DNA of 26,072 bases from an uncultured Mucilaginibacter sp. (lineage in GTDB: Bacteria > Bacteroidota > Bacteroidia > Sphingobacteriales > Sphingobacteriaceae), in the NCBI RefSeq assembly GCF_946481715.1, contig NZ_CAMLOV010000068.1, positions 1-26,072 on the forward strand, written 5' to 3'. The notes below the pieces were generated by a model. That model searched no databases and had not been told where the DNA came from. It saw only the letters and a list, made by a program, of their open reading frames with translations. Below are positions 3,601 through 25,163 of this stretch, piece by piece (position 1 is the first letter of the stretch; every line of letters begins with the position of its first letter). The position numbers and the translations under genes are program-made.

Positions 3601-6284
3601 TTGCCAACCTAAAAGGCACTACACTGCGTAACCATGAACAAGATTGGCTGAAATCCAACCTGGCCAAGTTTGCACAGATGCTCCAAGGCCAAAGAGATAG
3701 AAACGCCGTTGCTAATAAAGTACTATCTGAATTGGCCGAATTGGTAAATGCCCGTTACGGCGCGTTTTATATTTTAGAACAGCCAGAGGGTGCCGATGAA
3801 ATTAAATTAAAATTATTTGCCGGCTATGCTCAAAACAGCCGGAAATTAATTAACCAGGAATTTTCGTTAAGCGAAGGATTGGTTGGCCAATGTGCTACCG
3901 ATAAGGAACGTATCCGGCTGGCCAATGTGCCGAATGAATACCTGCAGATCAGTTCGGGCATTGGCAATGCCGCCCCAATAGACCTGGTGATTTTGCCGGT
4001 GCTGTTTGAAAACAACGTGAAGGCGGTTATCGAGCTCGCCTCGTTCGAGAATTTCAGCGATACCCACATTGACTTTTTGGATCAGCTGACAGAAAGTATT
4101 GGTATCGTGTTAAACAATATAGAGACTAATACCCGTACAGAAGAGTTATTATCGCAATCACAATCATTGGCTGGTGAACTTTCGGCCCAACAAGAAGAGT
4201 TAAGGCGCGCCAACGACGAGCTGCACGACAAGGGGCGTTCGCTGGAAGAAAAAGCGGAACAATTAACCCTGACATCTAAATATAAATCGGAGTTTCTGGC
4301 CAATATGTCGCACGAATTGCGCACGCCGTTGAACAGCTTATTGATCCTTGCACAACAACTGTTTGAAAACCCCGAAGGTAACCTCACAGAGAAGCAACGT
4401 ATGTTCGCCAAAACCATCCATTCCTGTGGTGGCGATTTGATTCAGCTGATCAATGATATCCTCGACCTTTCTAAGATCGAATCGGGCGTTATCGCGGCGG
4501 ATGTGATGCCCGTAAGCTTTAAAGAGATCGCTTCGTTTGCCGAAGCGACCTTTAAGCCGATATCCGAAGCCAAGAACCTGAAGTTCGAGATCGAACTGGA
4601 AGAAAGCCTGCCCGAGCAGATGGAAACCGATATGCAGCGCCTGAACCAGATACTCAAAAACCTGCTTTCCAATGCCTTTAAGTTTACAGAAAAAGGGCGG
4701 GTCAAACTAAGCGTGTTCCGGCCGGGGGCGGGCCAGGAAAACCCGATGAGTGGCCAGGATACGGTGGCCTTCTCTATCGAAGATTCCGGCATCGGCATCT
4801 CCAAGAACACGCAGGGCATTATCTTCGAAGCCTTTCAACAGGCCGAAGGCTCTACCAGCCGTAAATACGGGGGCACTGGCCTGGGGCTTTCGATCAGCAA
4901 AGGTTTTGCCGAGTTGCTGGGTGGTACGATTACGGTAGGCAGTGAGTTGGGCAAGGGTAGTGTTTTTACTTTGTACCTGCCATTAAAATACAAAGAAGAG
5001 AAATCAGCGCCCCTTAAAACAAAAGAAAGCTCTCCGGTGGCCCATTTGCGCGCCAGTTTGATTGATACAACCGAGCTGGTGATAGATGATGACCGCCATA
5101 GTATTTTAGTGGAAGACCGGGTATTACTGGTGATCGAGGATGATCTTCGCTTTACCAAGATACTGATCGATAAAGCGCACGACCTCGGGTTGAAGGTTGT
5201 GGTAGCGATTAGTTACCTGGAGATATTTGACAGTATTCTTAAATATAACCCGATAGCGATCACGTTGGATGTAAACATGCCCGAATCTAATGGCTGGAAG
5301 ATACTCAAACTCATGAAGACTGATGCGAACCTTCGCCATATTCCAATCCATGTGATCTCTGGCGAGGATAATAAACTCATGGCCTTTAAACATGGCGCCA
5401 AGACGTTCAGCCTTAAACCCCTATCCAATACTTCTCTGCACGAACTGATGGCTGGTATTGTGCATTTCCATGAGCATACCCGCAAACGGGTGCTGATCAT
5501 CGAGGATAGCGAGAACGAATTGCAACGGCTTTCCGAGCTCCTGTCAAATGAACAGATTGAGGTGTTTGGCGCTACGACCGCTAAAAAAGGACTGGCCGTG
5601 CTGAAAAAGGAACTGTTCGACTGTATCATCCTGGATTTTGTCCTGCCTGATGCCAACGGGCTGGAACTGCTCAACAAGATTAATTTGCTCAAGCAGCGCG
5701 AAACCATCATTCTTCTGCACTCTGCCCGGGATTTTACTCAGGACGAATTGATTCAGCTAAAACGGCTGAACCACAAGATCATTACCAAAACCCCCTCCTC
5801 GCATATTTACCTGCTGGAAGAAATACTGGTCTTGCTGCATATCAACAAAAAATATATCAGCGAAAGTAAACTAAAAATGATCGATGGCATACGGGCAACC
5901 CCGGATGTGCTGGACGCCAAAAAAGTACTCGTCGTTGATGATGATGTGCGTAATTTATTCGCGCTTACCGCAGTATTTGAACGCTCCAATATCGAGGTGA
6001 TTACGGCGGAAAGTGGACGCGAAGCGTTGGAGGTACTGAATAAGGACAAGGCTATTGATATTGTATTGATGGATATCATGATGCCCGAAATGGATGGCTA
6101 CGAAACCATCCAGATTATCCGCAGAGAGCCAAAACATAAAAACCTGCCTATTATAGCGGTTACCGCTAAGGCGATGATCGGCGACCGGCAGAAATGCATT
6201 GCCTCGGGCGCGTCGGATTATATTACCAAACCAGTCAAGACCGAGCAGCTGTTATCGCTGATGCGGGTATGGTTGATTAAATAA
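639..6284 (+). CDS. Soluble poly-HAMP hybrid histidine kinase with three receiver domains
   Basis: A sensor kinase of 1881 residues that should autophosphorylate on histidine and relay phosphate through its own receivers. Order of parts: a divergent HAMP-like N-terminus (about 20-167); nine tandem 92-residue HAMP units (168-995) with the recurring cores [21 protein letters not shown] and GDLSKKITV; a GAF domain (about 1015-1160); a coiled coil; HisKA with SHELRTP and phospho-accepting H1225; HATPase with N1345, DSGIG at 1382 and a GGTGLGLS box; then receivers with aspartates D1544, D1666 and D1812. The second receiver is the most divergent (DFVLPDANG). No signal peptide or membrane helix is visible, so it should be cytoplasmic. 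The architecture resembles fungal group III (Nik1-type) kinases and their bacterial relatives. The ATG at 639 is the first in frame. A REC-kinase gene follows 20 bp later and is probably co-transcribed. Confidence 0.95.
1140..3623 (+). repeat. Nine tandem 276-bp coding repeats (HAMP units)
   Basis: Direct repeats of exactly 276 bp (92 codons) inside the hybrid kinase, with constant length over nine copies and no indels. Units 2-7 are the most alike; units 8 and 9 are more divergent ([26 protein letters not shown]). Each unit carries a canonical HAMP part (ending near TINTMVDQL) and a linking divergent part, as in poly-HAMP chains. High DNA identity between neighbours makes copy-number change by recombination possible. 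Confidence 0.93.
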
Positions 6285-12040: not shown

Positions 12041-12907
12041 ATGGAGTTAAGACAGCTTAAATATTTTTTGAAGGCAAAAGAATTATTAAATTTTACCGAA
12101 GCAGCAAAAGCTTTAAATATCAGCCAAAGCACCTTATCCCAACAAATTAAGCAGCTGGAAGATGAGCTGAATGTGCCCTTGTTTAACCGCATTGGGAAAA
12201 GGATAACGCTTACCGAAGCAGGAGGCCTGTTTAGTGAATATGCTTTACAGAGTATAAACAGGGCTAATGAAGGGTTATTGCTTTTACAGGACCTGAAAAA
12301 TTTGGATACAGGAAAAATAACCGTCGGGGTAATTTACTCTATGCGGATACTGTTTGCCAAAAAATTGATACAGTTTGCAAAAGAGTATCCCAACATCAAA
12401 ATCCAGGTGGTATTTGGCACTACAAAAGACCTTTTGGAGAAACTTAATTTGCATCAGTTTGATTTTGTATTGACGTTTCATGAGAAAACCGACGACGCCC
12501 ACCTCAAATACCAAACCCTTTTACAATCAAACATGGTATTGGTAACCGCTAAAAAATCGCCGTTGGCACAAAAAACCGGTATATCACTTGCCGAAGTGGC
12601 CGGGTTGCCATTGGCTTTACCGTTTGGTGGTTACAGTACTATACAGTTTATTGAGGAATCGTTTAGCCAAAAAAAACTGGCTCCCAATATTTGTATGGAA
12701 ATAAATGATATACCAACCCTGTTTGAAATTGTAAAAACAGGGCATTGGCATACCATTTTGAGTGATACCAGTGTAAATGACCCCGATGTAATGGGTATTC
12801 CTATTGAAGGGAAAAACATGAGGCGAACCATTATGATTATTTCTGTAAGGGAAGCCTATGAAAAGAAAGCCGTAAAAAAATTCTATGAGATGCTGGCCGA
12901 AATTTAA
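12041..12907 (+). CDS. LysR-family transcriptional regulator
   Basis: A 288-residue regulator of usual LysR length. The winged helix-turn-helix is at 1-60 (RQLKYFLKAKELLNFTEAAKALNISQSTLSQQIKQLEDEL). The linker helix and the periplasmic-binding-protein-like effector domain (about 90-288) follow. It starts 123 bp from a divergent secreted EthD gene, with dyad half-sites between, the classical arrangement for a LysR controlling its divergent neighbour. It also lies upstream of the yeiH exporter on the same strand, and LysR proteins such as YeiE are known to control YeiH-type genes, so yeiH is a second possible target. The effector is unknown. Confidence 0.92.
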   Translation: MELRQLKYFLKAKELLNFTEAAKALNISQSTLSQQIKQLEDELNVPLFNRIGKRITLTEAGGLFSEYALQSINRANEGLLLLQDLKNLDTGKITVGVIYSMRILFAKKLIQFAKEYPNIKIQVVFGTTKDLLEKLNLHQFDFVLTFHEKTDDAHLKYQTLLQSNMVLVTAKKSPLAQKTGISLAEVAGLPLALPFGGYSTIQFIEESFSQKKLAPNICMEINDIPTLFEIVKTGHWHTILSDTSVNDPDVMGIPIEGKNMRRTIMIISVREAYEKKAVKKFYEMLAEI

Positions 12908-12965
12908 AGTTGGCGCACCAGCTATGGTGCCGATTGCCATACAATAATTTAAAAGCTTTTTATTG

Positions 12966-13003
12966 TAATAAACTATAAATTCTATGGATTTTATAGTTTA
13001 TTA
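12966..13003. promoter_or_regulatory. 14-bp inverted repeat upstream of the leader peptide and yeiH
   Basis: TAATAAACTATAAA (12966-12979) and TTTATAGTTTATTA (12990-13003) form a perfect 14-bp inverted repeat with a 10-bp spacer. It ends 10 bp before the TATATTTG promoter element and would cover the -33 region, so a bound dimeric repressor would block the promoter. The regulator is not identified. Confidence 0.65.
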
Positions 13004-13013
13004 ATTATTTTTA

Positions 13014-13021
13014 TATATTTG
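13014..13021 (+). promoter_or_regulatory. Bacteroidota -7 promoter element (TATATTTG)
   Basis: An exact match to TAnnTTTG, 23 bp before the leader-peptide start codon. It implies a transcript start near 13028, only about 16 nt before the leader ATG, with yeiH reached about 240 nt downstream. Confidence 0.65.
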
Positions 13022-13043
13022 CCGCGTAGAAAAAAACACAGCA

Positions 13044-13145
13044 ATGGAATCTTCTTTAAATAAAGAAAGAATTACTCTAAAGTTAACTAACGGCATACCT
13101 GCTACTCTCCCGGTCGGTGCATGCTGTTGTTGCCGTTGTTTCTAA
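13044..13145 (+). CDS. Polycysteine leader peptide upstream of yeiH (33 aa)
   Basis: A 33-codon open frame, ATG to TAA. It begins MESSLNKERITLK and ends LPVGACCCCRCF, with four consecutive cysteine codons (13122-13133; residues 27-30) and a fifth at 32, just before the stop. It lies directly after a clear promoter element and 123 bp before the exporter gene. Runs of codons for one amino acid in a short leader are typical of attenuators that sense charged tRNA. Here that would be cysteine, the end point of the sulfur pathway linked to the exporter. Polycysteine leaders with this role are described in mycobacteria; the use here is inferred. Alternatively, the peptide could bind a metal. Confidence 0.65.
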   Translation: MESSLNKERITLKLTNGIPATLPVGACCCCRCF

Positions 13146-13268
13146 ATAAAACCCAATTTTCGGGCTTTAAAATAACTGCGGGCCGTATTCCCGTAAATTA
13201 ACTACTTGCGTCTCTTAAGCCGGTTGTCCGGCAAATATTAATAGCTTTATTTTCAAAAAACAAAAATT
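13146..13268 (+). promoter_or_regulatory. Leader RNA between the polycysteine ORF and yeiH
   Basis: 123 nt containing small stem-loops: CCC-AATTTTC-GGG near 13150, CGGG-N7-CCCG near 13178 and GCCGG-TTGT-CCGGC near 13221. The last one lies about 35 nt before the yeiH start. The GC-rich segment CCGGTCGG near 13110-13117 in the leader ORF could pair with it, giving alternative folds. No strong T-tract terminator is seen, so translational or Rho-dependent control would fit better than intrinsic termination. Confidence 0.35.
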
Positions 13269-14525
13269 ATGTCATCAACCACTACTAAACTTACCCTGCA
13301 CGAAGACTGGGCAGTAGTAATTTTAGGCTCCCTTATCATTGTACTGGCTATTGCCGGCTTATTGGTTCCAATACCTGCTTTTGGCTGGGCAAATGGCACC
13401 GAACTAAGCACTAAAGTTTTCGGCCCCGAAAACTTGCTGAAGATACTTACTCAGTTTGCCTTTGTATCGGTTATTGGTGGGATTGGTGCATTTATTACAG
13501 GTAAATCTGTAAAAAACTACGCAATGGGTTTCCCGCTGGTTTACCTGGTAACCGTAGTTGCATTAATATTGGCCGGCAGCAGCCAGGCAAAATCACTCAA
13601 CCTGGAAGCAGTGATCTTTAGCCTGGTATTAGGTTTAGCCATCAGTAACTTTTTTAAACTTCCCCAATGGCTTAAAAGTTCGCTTTCTACCGAGTTGTTT
13701 GTTAAAGTAGGTTTAGTGCTGTTAGGTACCTCTGTTATTTTCGGGGATATTTTAAAGGCTGGTTCGCTGGGCTTAATTCAGGCCTTGTTGGTGGTTACTT
13801 CGGTATGGTATTTTGCTTTTTGGATTTGTAAAAAACTAAAGGTTGATGACGAAATAGCCATGATGATATCCAGCGCGGTATCTATCTGCGGTGTTTCTGC
13901 CGCCATAGCTACAGCGGGCGCAATCAAAGGCGACTCTAAAAAGCTATCATACGTTATTTCCATGGTGCTCATTACGGCTATCCCCATGATGATATTTATG
14001 CCCATTATTGCCAAATACTTTCATTTTACGCAGGAGGTAACCGGTGCCTGGCTGGGTGGCAGTATTGATACGACAGGCGCCGTTGTAGCATCGGGCACAT
14101 TGGTTGGCGAGGCTGCCTTAAAAATAAGCACCATAGTAAAATTCTCTCAGAATGTATTGCTTGGGCTTGCTGCTTTTGCTATCTCTATTTACTGGACTTA
14201 TACCAAGCACCCGGCAGCAAAAGATAAAGATACCAAGCCTACGCTTGCCGTGATATGGGAGCGTTTCCCCAAGTTTGTATTAGGGTTTATTGGTGCCTCG
14301 CTGTTATTCTCTTTTGTTGTTGGCCCCACAACTATCCTCGCTGTAAAAGACAGCCTGAAAAGCCTGCAGGGCCTGTGGTTTGCGTTGGCCTTTACCAGCA
14401 TAGGGCTGGAAACCAACGTCGCCGACTTGTTTAACGAGAACAGTAAAAAACCACTGTACGCGTTTTTAATTGCGCAAACCTTCAATATTTTTGTTACCCT
14501 GGGCATCGCCTGGATCTTATTTTAA
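13269..14525 (+). CDS. yeiH: YeiH-family putative sulfate/sulfite exporter
   Basis: A 418-residue polytopic inner-membrane protein with about ten hydrophobic helices. It shows family signatures: LGLAISNFF, VKVGLVLLGTSVIFGDI, the central MISSAVSICGVSAAIATAGAI and SIGLETNVADLF near the C-terminus. The YeiH/PSE family (UPF0324) includes exporters found beside sulfonate breakdown genes, where they are proposed to release sulfate or sulfite. No sulfonate enzymes are present in this window. Upstream are a palindromic operator, a strong promoter element and a polycysteine leader ORF, which together suggest tight control by sulfur or cysteine status. Transport direction and substrate are inferred from the family. 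Confidence 0.88.
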   Translation: MSSTTTKLTLHEDWAVVILGSLIIVLAIAGLLVPIPAFGWANGTELSTKVFGPENLLKILTQFAFVSVIGGIGAFITGKSVKNYAMGFPLVYLVTVVALILAGSSQAKSLNLEAVIFSLVLGLAISNFFKLPQWLKSSLSTELFVKVGLVLLGTSVIFGDILKAGSLGLIQALLVVTSVWYFAFWICKKLKVDDEIAMMISSAVSICGVSAAIATAGAIKGDSKKLSYVISMVLITAIPMMIFMPIIAKYFHFTQEVTGAWLGGSIDTTGAVVASGTLVGEAALKISTIVKFSQNVLLGLAAFAISIYWTYTKHPAAKDKDTKPTLAVIWERFPKFVLGFIGASLLFSFVVGPTTILAVKDSLKSLQGLWFALAFTSIGLETNVADLFNENSKKPLYAFLIAQTFNIFVTLGIAWILF

Positions 14526-22706: not shown

Positions 22707-23357
22707 TTATACTGTCGCGCTATAGGTAAGGTATTTCCAGGTGGGTATAGCTAAGGCGGATCCGGCAACAGGCGCAACAATATACAACCAAAGGTGCTCC
22801 GTATGGCCCGAAACGATTGCCGGCGCAATAGAGCGGGCGGGGTTCATGGATGCACCACAGATAGGGCCTGCAAACATGGCTTCCAGCCCAATTACCGCAC
22901 CAATGGCAATACCGGCAAACTGCCCTTGTTCTTTACTGCCTTGCGCCACGTTCATGATCACCAGCATTAAAAAGTAGGTCAAGAGTAATTCGAGGATAAA
23001 CGACTGCATATCGGTGCCTGCCGGCATTGTTGCACCCAATAATGGGCTGGTGGGGAAAAGAAATTTAAGCGTGAGGCTGGCCAATACTGCCCCAGCTACC
23101 TGGCTAATGATATACCCGGGCAGCAGCCGGGCCTTAAAACGGCCCGCTATGGTAAAAGCGATACTTACCGCAGGGTTGATATGGCAGCCCGATACGTTGC
23201 CAATACTGTAGATCAAACTCATTACAATTAACCCCCAGGTAATGGCTACGCCTACGTGGCTTACGGCACCGCCCGTTTGCTGATCGATCACCATAGCGCC
23301 CGTGCCGCAAAAGACAAGTATAAACGTGCCGATCAACTCGGCCATACATTTCCTCAC
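22707..23357 (-). CDS. Aquaporin-family channel, likely arsenite exit channel of the ars operon
   Basis: A 216-residue MIP-family membrane channel with six hydrophobic helices and both half-helix NPA motifs: SGCHINPAVSIAF near 56-68 and GASMNPARSIAPA near 168-180. It overlaps the arsC stop region by four bases, so it is translated with arsC. No ArsB or Acr3 efflux pump is present. In rhizobia an aquaporin (AqpS) takes the pump's place: arsenate is reduced inside and arsenite leaves through the channel down its gradient. The same role is inferred here. The 141 bp beyond the gene carry the palindrome and promoter of the next unit. Confidence 0.88.
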   Translation of the reverse strand: MRKCMAELIGTFILVFCGTGAMVIDQQTGGAVSHVGVAITWGLIVMSLIYSIGNVSGCHINPAVSIAFTIAGRFKARLLPGYIISQVAGAVLASLTLKFLFPTSPLLGATMPAGTDMQSFILELLLTYFLMLVIMNVAQGSKEQGQFAGIAIGAVIGLEAMFAGPICGASMNPARSIAPAIVSGHTEHLWLYIVAPVAGSALAIPTWKYLTYSATV

Positions 23358-23770
23358 GCTATATGTGCTTTTATAAAATCGGCGGAGTAAACTTTTATCA
23401 TGTCCCTCACCCGGCGAAACTCGTGCATTACCTCTTCGGGGTTGCCTGTTGCTTTAGCGGGGTCGGGGAAGTTGTAGTGAAAACGTTCTACATTACCGGG
23501 GAAGAAAGGGCAGGCCTCCTTTGCATTATCGCATACGGTGATAACCATATCAAAGGGGATAGCCAGGTACTCATCCACATGGTTTGAGGTGTGGTTGGAA
23601 ATATCAATATGGTCTTCTGCCATCACCTGGATAGCTTTGGGGTTTACGCCGTGCGTTTCGATACCCGCACTGTAGATATTTGCTTTACCACCTGCAAAGT
23701 AACGCAGGTAGCCTTCGGCAATTTGGCTGCGGCAGCTGTTTCCGGTGCACAGCACTAATATGTTTTTCAT
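23354..23770 (-). CDS. arsC: Arsenate reductase, thioredoxin-coupled type
   Basis: A 138-residue low-molecular-weight phosphatase-fold arsenate reductase. The P-loop CTGNSCRS gives nucleophile C8 and R14. The relay cysteines C80 and C87 in VCDNAKEACPFF have the same spacing as Cys10/Cys82/Cys89 of the staphylococcal enzyme, which indicates regeneration by thioredoxin. The FPDP motif supplies the general acid D103. It reduces arsenate to arsenite in the cytoplasm. It lies one base after the acetyltransferase stop and overlaps the aquaporin start, so all are one operon. Confidence 0.95.
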   Translation of the reverse strand: MKNILVLCTGNSCRSQIAEGYLRYFAGGKANIYSAGIETHGVNPKAIQVMAEDHIDISNHTSNHVDEYLAIPFDMVITVCDNAKEACPFFPGNVERFHYNFPDPAKATGNPEEVMHEFRRVRDMIKVYSADFIKAHIA

Positions 23771-23771
23771 T

Positions 23772-24200
23772 TTATGCGATTGATTTTTTCATTACGATTG
23801 CGGATGCCGGGCAAGCATAGCTAAACTCCGAAGATTGCTGTACGGCAGCGGGTACGTCGTCCCGTGTAATTTTAGTAAAGCCTTTTTGCTCAAAGTATGC
23901 AGGCGCGGTTTCTGTCAGCAGGTATAATTCCAGCAGCCCGTTCTGTTTGCTCATGCCCTCCAGATGCGCCAACAGTGTTGTTGCAATACCTGCACGGCGA
24001 TGCTCTGGATTCACAGCTAAAGAACGGAGCAATCCGTAATTTCCATAAACTTCCACGCCGCCAACGCCTGCTACTGTACCATCGTTAGTGGCAACAATAA
24101 AATTATCCAGCGTTTCGGGCAGGTCCGCTACCGGCAGCTTTTCAGCCGCTAACAGTTCAATTATTTTCTCTCTGTGGGGTTGTGCGTTTTCTATCGTCAT
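23772..24200 (-). CDS. arsN2: ArsN2-type GNAT acetyltransferase
   Basis: A 142-residue GNAT acetyltransferase. The acetyl-CoA-binding motif is LRSLAVNPEHRRAGIATTLLAHL (about 69-91), followed by LYLLTETAPAYFEQKGFTKI. This matches the small acetyltransferase that regularly occurs with arsC and arsR genes and is named ArsN2. Its exact substrate is unclear; the related ArsN1 acetylates arsinothricin. The start at 24200 is chosen because MTIENAQPHREK begins the domain and leaves 11 bp to the preceding gene. An upstream ATG at 24242 would overlap the DUF6428 gene by about 30 bases. Confidence 0.85.
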   Translation of the reverse strand: MTIENAQPHREKIIELLAAEKLPVADLPETLDNFIVATNDGTVAGVGGVEVYGNYGLLRSLAVNPEHRRAGIATTLLAHLEGMSKQNGLLELYLLTETAPAYFEQKGFTKITRDDVPAAVQQSSEFSYACPASAIVMKKSIA

Positions 24201-24211
24201 TTTATTTGTAT

Positions 24212-24778
24212 TTAGCAGCAGCCTCCGCCCGGTGTGCAGCAAGCTTCTGCCGGGGCGGCCAGGTTAATTAATTTCACTTTCGGTGTTTCGGCAACCGGGG
24301 CACAGCATTCTTCGCCTTTATCGTTAGTGCCGCAACTGCCGCCACGGGTTTGGGCTTTGCATTGTACCGCATCGGGGCGCAGGTCTATGGTTAACGCTGT
24401 TCCGCTTACTATCATTTCGTTCGGGAACATCTGGCGGGTATCAAATTCCGAATTGCCAAACTCTATCTTTACCGTGCCGTTCGGATCAAGCGGTAGCATT
24501 TTTTCTACAATGTTTACAATGGATAAAGCTTTATCCACCTTCATCGAGCGCTCTTGCTGCTCGCCCTCGGGTACCCATAGCTGCACAATGATCTCCGTCC
24601 AGGCGTTCATCACCCCGCCGCAATCTACCGAAGTAATTGGCGCTTGTTTTATCTCCGTAATATGGTAAGCCGCATCTACCAGTTTGCCTTCGGCGTATTG
24701 AAATTGCAGGTGCAGGCCCGGGTGCTGCAACAAGGTGTCTTTAAAAGTTTTCCAGTTTATCGCTTCTGCTTTATTCAT
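24212..24778 (-). CDS. DUF6428 protein with cysteine-rich tail (ars operon)
   Basis: A 188-residue cytoplasmic protein with no signal peptide. The main part (1-135) includes ITSVDCGGVMNAWTEIIVQLWVP and a second conserved stretch, FGNSEFDTRQMFPNEMIV. It ends in a tail with many cysteines: VQCKAQTRGGSCG, EECCAPV and a final EACCTPGGGCC. It matches the DUF6428 family, frequently next to arsR and arsC in Bacteroidota but without known function. The cysteine pairs could bind As(III) or a metal. An ArsR-type operator 22 bp upstream suggests it has its own arsenic-controlled promoter. Confidence 0.8.
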   Translation of the reverse strand: MNKAEAINWKTFKDTLLQHPGLHLQFQYAEGKLVDAAYHITEIKQAPITSVDCGGVMNAWTEIIVQLWVPEGEQQERSMKVDKALSIVNIVEKMLPLDPNGTVKIEFGNSEFDTRQMFPNEMIVSGTALTIDLRPDAVQCKAQTRGGSCGTNDKGEECCAPVAETPKVKLINLAAPAEACCTPGGGCC

Positions 24779-24799
24779 GGCTTGTTTTTTTTAATATTG

Positions 24800-24815
24800 A
24801 TTGTAATATTGCGAT
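24800..24815. promoter_or_regulatory. ArsR operator, copy before the DUF6428 gene
   Basis: ATTGTAATATTGCGAT matches the reverse complement of the palindrome before arsR in 15 of 16 positions. It lies between the arsR stop and the DUF6428 start, so the operon has a second arsenic-responsive control point. Confidence 0.7.
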
Positions 24816-24833
24816 GGATTTAAGTAAATTTTT

Positions 24834-25163
24834 TTAACAGCAGTTATTCATGTCTTTATAAGACGAGAACAACGCATTTAACTCGTTTTGCAGTTTTTGC
24901 CAGGCTACAGGCTCTATACAATAACAAACGCTCACGCCTTCAATAGTCCCTTGTATCAACCCTGCATTTTTTAATTCTTTTAAATGCTGCGATATGGTTG
25001 CTTGCGCCAGGCCCAGTTCGCCTACCAAATCGCCGCAGATACAGGCATTAACTTTTATCAGTTCCTGCAAAATGGCAATACGCGCCGGGTGTGCTATAGC
25101 TTTCAGCTGCACGGCCAGTTGGTTTTGCGCTTCGGTATAAATTTCTGATTTAGTAATGCCCAT
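24834..25163 (-). CDS. arsR: ArsR-family arsenic-responsive repressor
   Basis: A 109-residue winged-helix protein with the recognition helix QATISQHLKELKNAGLI (about 54-70). The As(III)-binding pair C41 and C43 is in NACICGDLV at the start of the DNA-binding helices, as in classical ArsR. Further cysteines are C80 and C82 (VCYC) and the terminal C108-C109. Binding of arsenite should release it from DNA. A matching palindrome lies 6 bp upstream of its own start and another before the next gene, so it autoregulates. It is the first gene of the operon. Confidence 0.94.
   Translation of the reverse strand: MGITKSEIYTEAQNQLAVQLKAIAHPARIAILQELIKVNACICGDLVGELGLAQATISQHLKELKNAGLIQGTIEGVSVCYCIEPVAWQKLQNELNALFSSYKDMNNCC

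Follow-up and report, generated by a model that had tools for sequence, protein, structure and literature searches.

A candidate cysteine-responsive leader peptide before yeiH in an uncultured Mucilaginibacter and its counterparts at sulfur-linked operons of Bacteroidota

What is a short open reading frame that ends in a run of cysteine codons doing between a promoter and a gene for a putative sulfate/sulfite transporter? The frame lies in a 26,072-nt stretch of DNA from an uncultured Mucilaginibacter sp., which is called the window in the following. Bacteroidota are abundant in soil, water and guts, and they are known feeders on sulfated polymers.

The frame and its surroundings in the window

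The frame occupies 13044-13145 on the plus strand. It starts with ATG, has 33 codons (MESSLNKERITLKLTNGIPATLPVGACCCCRCF) and closes with ACCCCRCF and a TAA stop, as the first-pass annotation had described. Its Cys codons are TGC TGT TGT TGC at 13122-13133, followed by an Arg codon (CGT) and one further Cys codon (TGT, 13137-13139), all on the plus strand. The promoter element claimed just upstream was found as TATATTTG at 13014-13021 (+, read from the sequence), with a spacing of 22 nt to the ATG; we call it -7-like on the basis of TAnnTTTG, which we take to be the Bacteroidota -7 consensus. Further upstream, an inverted repeat AAACTATAAA...TTTATAGTTT (12970-12999, no strand assigned, read from the sequence) encloses a box, TCTATGGATTTTATAGT, at 12981-12997 (no strand assigned), which has one mismatch to the palindrome TCTAY-N7-RTAGA discussed below. 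Counted from the first base of this box, the leader ATG is at +63, and the final T of the box is also found in orthologous leaders (TCTATAGATTTGGTAGT). The 123 bp claimed between leader and yeiH likewise agree with the sequence: the untranslated stretch covers 13146-13268 (+), from the leader stop to the ATG at 13269.

The gene behind it (13269-14525, +; 418 aa) is yeiH-like and matches PF03601 with 180.7 bits (cut-off 24.5); against TIGR00698, the YeiH model, it reaches 97.2 bits, below the cut-off of 232.6. The immediate upstream context is a gene for a LysR-type regulator (12041-12907, +; HTH_1 and LysR_substrate matches). At E 1e-10, none of the other loci compared has a homologue of it; for this reason we rejected it as a general regulator of leader loci, and it is probably context, outside the general leader design.

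It had been argued that four adjacent Cys codons are very unlikely by chance, and this argument fails. The bare DNA TGYTGYTGYTGY (four adjacent TGY) has 67-134 matches per genome in 12/12 Mucilaginibacter genomes, against 7-21 per genome for the reversed-pattern control in the same 12; bare TGY runs are common, and the improbability of the run was therefore dropped as an argument. What stands above chance is the place and conservation of Cys-ended ORFs, not the Cys run itself. Peptide queries were not productive in finding relatives: the leader peptide recovered 5 plasmid records (E 6-10) in a similarity search, and with an E limit of 1 it matched 94/301 family genomes; the best E was 0.0057, and internal stops interrupt many of the matches. 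The CCCCRC pattern TGYTGYTGYTGYMGNTGY occurs in 154/301 family genomes, most inspected matches not being leader-like; with a stop added, it occurs in 8/395 phylum genomes versus 3 for the reversed-pattern control. In the best 80 of 150 yeiH loci, the 500 nt before yeiH never contain an ORF with three Cys in a row, and in 9 they contain some ORF with CC. A Cys-run ORF directly before yeiH is thus not found in these relatives, and the absence before orthologous yeiH, taken alone, would have weighed against the finding.

Relatives of the leader and the palindromic box

The relatives of the leader were recovered by a DNA query. Positions 12900-13330 matched 60/149 genomes of the genus at E up to 0.001, some of them via the yeiH start only. 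The best match covers promoter and leader (window 12974-13149) with 80% identity and comes from the Mucilaginibacter MAG RYN_316, which is also the genome of the closest yeiH relative among the best 80 of 150 loci. Its leader reads MKSSLNKERIILQLTYCMSAAPKAGACCCCCC and ends ACCCCCC before the stop, with six Cys; the window leader end differs from it by one codon change and a 2-nt difference in the Cys run. We fetched 40 loci, the better matches of the list, for DNA resemblance to the window promoter and leader. A Cys-ended short ORF is present in 27 of them, in 23 with its ATG no more than 6 nt from the homologous position; the background in the same loci is 38 Cys-ended among 1507 short ATG ORFs, probably including these 27. 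The other 13 loci have no Cys-ended ORF, and the similarity there is mostly in the box/promoter part, often before other genes or none.

In ten further Mucilaginibacter loci, yeiH is preceded by enough DNA for comparison (L300, L301, L339-L346), and eight of these loci share one co-directional order: box, Cys-ended leader, SusC (1043-1044 aa), SusD, a 453-aa protein, a 533-539-aa protein, an FAD oxidoreductase (missing from the L301 operon) and yeiH. In L339 and L344, yeiH is present, and leader and SusC are absent. For L345, domain matches bear out SusC, SusD and the oxidoreductase, and the two middle proteins match nothing in Pfam. Downstream of yeiH in L300, a cytochrome c and a molybdopterin oxidoreductase carrying a Mo-co dimer domain are encoded, which we take to be the make-up of a sulfite oxidase. 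In the window, the leader block ends at about 13149 and the pre-yeiH block starts at about 13247. SusC, SusD and the rest of the middle genes are missing between them, so that the leader abuts yeiH; most simply they would have been deleted, and relocation could also account for this. The sequence at about 13150-13246 has no match to the relatives and marks the place expected for the missing operon genes. Direct contact of a leader with yeiH was seen only in this window. The ORF and its Cys codons are thus conserved in related genomes (27/40 loci; 8/10 yeiH operons), and the lack of conservation named in advance as a refutation of the first-pass proposal did not occur. The proposal of a leader device for yeiH stands as to a leader-type ORF, a Cys run kept in relatives and sulfur genes alongside; it is not specific to yeiH, because the usual place of this leader family is at the head of SusC/SusD operons, with yeiH as a distal gene.

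The same design recurs beyond this family. Short ATG frames that carry a Cys run close to the stop were sought in 199 sequences; besides the window, this gave five frames that begin 11-27 nt past a TAnnTTTG and overlap no long frame (two in L064, one each in L114, L121 and L139); four of the five have a gene downstream, L121 being the exception. The DNA upstream of these frames yielded the palindrome TCTAY-N7-RTAGA, which sits before the promoter and has 46 copies in 1.09 Mb versus 2.0 in a Markov control, many of the loci being homologous or overlapping. A survey independent of cysteine was made with TCTACTWWWWNNRTAGA in 20 genomes, where it has 54 matches versus 13 for the reversed-pattern control; all places were examined except two, both in G148, which had been seen earlier in L139 with leaders. 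This gave 48 distinct box sites, 7 of them within genes and 38 eligible intergenic ones. Short ATG ORFs whose final 8 residues include 3 or more Cys follow 14 of the 38; in 200 dinucleotide shuffles, the number of such sites averages 0.19 and never exceeds 2. The sites are partly non-independent, one and the same PhyH leader accounting for four of the 14. In a looser test, 16/56 box loci compare with 177/3000 random intergenic points; for yeiH loci, CCC tails number 0/29 versus 30/3000 and CxCC-type tails 15/29 versus 34/3000.

No such Cys-ended ORF is present at the other 24 eligible sites, two of which have ORFs whose Cys run is shorter or more distant (L219, ...TACC; L249, ...NCCCCCRGFSRM). 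The 24 include boxes before APS kinase, redoxin and aminotransferase-V/NifS-like genes (L213, L240, L208, L230 and others) and before Pedobacter yeiH. Because boxes without a Cys leader precede APS kinase, NifS-like and redoxin genes, the box regulon is suggested to be wider than the leader set. At Pedobacter yeiH, the box and a -7 element lie about 250 nt upstream (at L013:3748 and correspondingly in L014, L017, L020 and L044); in L013, a hairpin resembling a terminator, AAAAGCCAGGTTGGATGACCTGGCTTTTT, lies in the 5' leader, which has no evident Cys ORF.

The leaders fall into groups by the genes behind them. The middles of the peptides vary and their lengths differ; the start position and the terminal Cys codons are kept. 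PhyH leaders read MRMP(L/F)....MCSCCC in 6/6 aligned, and leaders before SusC-like receptors end in ...HTACCCC, ...TAMCCC, ...QSCCCCC and others. In Flavobacterium, a frame of 27-28 codons ends MCxCC (x = F, S, I, M, G or K) in 21/22 full frames; the remaining full frame ends MSICC, and one further copy is interrupted by a stop. The start codon of this group is uncertain, because the counted TTG overlaps the -7 element. The Pfam domains behind leaders, in the loci tested, are SusC-like Plug, PhyH, AhpC-TSA/thioredoxin, FGE, Peptidase_S10 and sigma-70 region 2, and a sulfatase lies behind leaders in L021 and L061. The gene in L243 has no Pfam match, and neither for it nor for the Peptidase_S10 target (L064) is a role in sulfur metabolism evident. 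L064 also has the order leader, thioredoxin-like gene, yeiH. A receptor with a Cys-ended leader adjoins sulfite reductase/cysH genes in three of the seven cys clusters fetched (L279, where domains were identified in the genes, L280 and L284), and not in L282, L283, L285 and L286.

Several further arrangements were seen. Tandem Cys-ended short ORFs (...SMCCCN and ...LCRCCCQPV) precede an AhpC-TSA gene on the minus strand of L236. In L139, L200, L203, L205, L212, L220 and L243, the strand opposite the PhyH leader carries another Cys leader nearby (e.g. ...YCCCR); it precedes a secreted protein of unknown kind, with an SDR-like gene between in L139. On the minus strand of L053, a box (at 5528 of the reverse complement), the short ORF MKLINCNMCKMMPEFSAAFLL and the terminator AACCTCTGCAAACCGCAGAGGTTTTTTT precede a MetY-like gene (Cys_Met_Meta_PP); this locus may be a classical-type Met/Cys attenuator.

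RNA features between leader and gene

The first-pass annotation likened the frame to amino-acid attenuators. The likeness stands for its placement, its Cys codons and the sulfur genes; it does not extend to a terminator, as a terminator scan found none between the window leader and yeiH. Among 32 leaders, an intrinsic terminator lies behind one. The stretch from leader to gene is C-rich and G-poor, with a C-over-G skew of 0.39 (n = 32); the upstream stretches of 577 control genes have 0.08 (Mann-Whitney p 1.5e-10, the loci being treated as independent despite their kinship); the window stretch has a skew of only 0.16. The Cys codons do not generally pair better than in shuffles, with a mean z of -0.49 for the stretch behind and -0.41 for the stretch before, and single groups pair more strongly, e.g. 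Flavobacterium with the upstream stretch (z -1.7 to -5.8). In the predicted structure of the PhyH group, 2/40 pairs changed on both sides. No common competing pairing or switch was found across the leaders, and the combination of terminator and competing antiterminator that marks the classical trp type is absent.

The SusC family to which the window leader belongs has a conserved structured RNA element between leader and SusC gene, consisting of the hairpin ACCGGCAAGGAAGCCTTGCCGGT plus another helix, 4/6 pairs of which show changes on both sides (19 sequences). It is present in 29 fetched loci at 27 distinct places, each behind a Cys-ended leader (examples are L340:6798, L299:2239 and, on the minus strand, L345 at 6873), and it matched no Rfam family in the 7 loci tested. 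The element was not seen in the 123 nt of the window. The other leader groups, with a spacing of 54-340 nt from leader to gene, do not have it either, so it would be an addition rather than a requirement. Rfam at curated score gave nothing but one tRNA on the window and only tRNAs in 10 loci; at E up to 1, it gave tRNAs and one Thr_leader far below cut-off in 7 loci.

A proposed cysteine-reading leader and its alternatives

We propose, with a probability of roughly 0.7, that the frame is a cysteine-responsive leader peptide of a sulfur-scavenging regulon, lying in the window directly before yeiH. It would be of the broad kind of amino-acid leader-peptide attenuators: an ORF conserved in place between promoter and gene, codons of the presumably sensed residue near its end and kept in homologues, and behind it genes that appear to belong to the metabolism of that amino acid, some targets being of unclear role. 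Through the leader, the cell probably gauges how much cysteine it has, because the same design precedes many sulfur-scavenging genes in related bacteria. In the proposed process, a promoter under the palindromic box would give an mRNA in which a disposable leader with terminal Cys codons comes first. With ample Cys-tRNA, the ribosome would complete the leader and depart, and the sulfur-scavenging genes would be held back; with scarce Cys-tRNA, it would wait at the Cys codons before the stop, and the downstream genes would be expressed. The waiting ribosome may relieve Rho-type termination, or the leader may act as a translational switch; either is likelier than a trp-type terminator, because the leaders are mostly without a terminator and the stretch behind them is C-rich and G-poor. 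The leader thus probably works without an intrinsic terminator; the C-over-G skew favours Rho-type termination, and translational control is also possible. In the window, a leader adjoining yeiH would bring the transporter under cysteine control. The sequences themselves show an ORF fixed in place behind box and -7 element, Cys codons that persist while the rest of the peptide changes, sulfur-linked genes downstream and, in the window, the loss of the middle genes from this place; translation, stalling, the direction of the response, the mechanism and a working window copy are what we infer from them.

Four other explanations deserve weighing. That the window leader is a chance ORF is highly improbable: TGY runs are indeed common in these genomes, but the shuffle control and the homologous leaders at the same place contradict it. 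The window copy may, however, be partly decayed; its regulatory ability is in doubt because the RNA element is absent and the Cys-run end altered. It is possible, though we consider it unlikely, that the family works as an attenuator and the window copy is a remnant that has lost SusC, SusD and the UTR element, so that only the promoter with its box matters. The missing middle genes and RNA element, the codon change and 2-nt difference at the leader end and a leader-yeiH contact found in the window only would all fit such a remnant. Yet the window frame is intact with five Cys codons, and the other leader groups, if they work, do so at their spacing without the RNA element.

The peptide itself could also matter. 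Fixed C-terminal motifs such as MCxCC and MCSCCC would suit an arrest peptide, whose nascent chain stalls the ribosome on another signal (sulfite, redox state) and not on low Cys-tRNA. The residues between the Cys vary freely, however, as is expected if only codon identity counts, and we regard arrest as quite unlikely. A functional small Cys-rich peptide, e.g. metal- or thiol-binding, co-expressed with sulfur genes seems a shade less probable still; translation is plausible and Cys-rich ends could bind metals, but the middles are very variable and the lengths differ with only start position and terminal Cys codons kept, and the Cys stand at the very end, immediately before the stop.

Beyond the single leader, the loci may reflect a two-layer sulfur-starvation regulon of Bacteroidota, a proposal for which we see even odds. 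A putative regulator would act at TCTAY-N7-RTAGA, and cysteine-counting leaders would act on many operons (SusC/D uptake, sulfatases, the yeiH operon); charged Cys-tRNA would gate outer-membrane uptake, in one large group jointly with a new structured RNA, and rearrangement would hand a leader to another gene, as in the window. If this is true, Bacteroidota carry a cysteine sensor on outer-membrane uptake systems, the leaders flag, by sequence alone, which uncharacterised SusC/SusD systems supply sulfur, and the regulon and its putative regulator are directly testable. The leaders also place YeiH and uptake genes in one operon, joined in one annotated locus by a sulfite-oxidase-like enzyme, and this helps to pin down what YeiH does.

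Leaders of this kind have been described elsewhere. Mycobacteria have polycysteine leaderless short ORFs (Canestrari et al. 2020, Mol Microbiol, as cited in PMC13236596), which resemble the present ones as short upstream Cys-run ORFs with a cysteine-responsive attenuation attributed to them there (PMC13236596). They differ in phylum and in serving, as described there, cysteine biosynthesis genes, whereas mainly uptake and scavenging genes are served here; the shared palindromic box is a feature of the Bacteroidota leaders, unlike these ORFs. The mycobacterial ORFs are leaderless; judged by position only, the window ORF would not be, its ATG lying 22 nt past the -7 element, and the ATG is closer to that element in some other loci. 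Candidate Cys leaders were also reported before cys operons of Mycobacterium and Propionibacterium acnes and before cbs of Bifidobacterium (PMC1262725); according to that report, they have runs of Cys codons near the stop and no conserved terminator, and Rho was considered there too, but they belong to single operons of Actinobacteria, compared with a regulon of many targets here. Leader-peptide attenuation is on record in Bacteroidota, before amino-acid operons of Flavobacterium psychrophilum (PMC9723704); these are biosynthesis operons, and cysteine leaders do not appear in the main-text passages of that paper. In Salmonella, the LysR protein YeiE binds sulfite and regulates yeiH, with a part in sulfite resistance (PMC12880088). 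YeiH beside a LysR gene and sulfite handling are common to both cases; the control described there is by LysR, in contrast to the box, leader ORF and SusC/SusD operon here. We found no report of Cys leaders in Bacteroidota in the main text of the open-licence literature searched. As far as could be seen, the kind of leader is known; the novelty lies in the phylum, in the box that the leaders share, in the uptake genes behind them and in the RNA element.

The window has other features as well. A tRNA is cut by the window start (1-63, Rfam). On the minus strand, 22707-25163 holds what by eye is an arsenic-type-like cluster of ArsR-like, acetyltransferase-like, phosphatase/reductase-like and aquaporin-like genes, and this cluster includes a DUF6428 gene, supported by a profile match, with a CC..GGGCC end.
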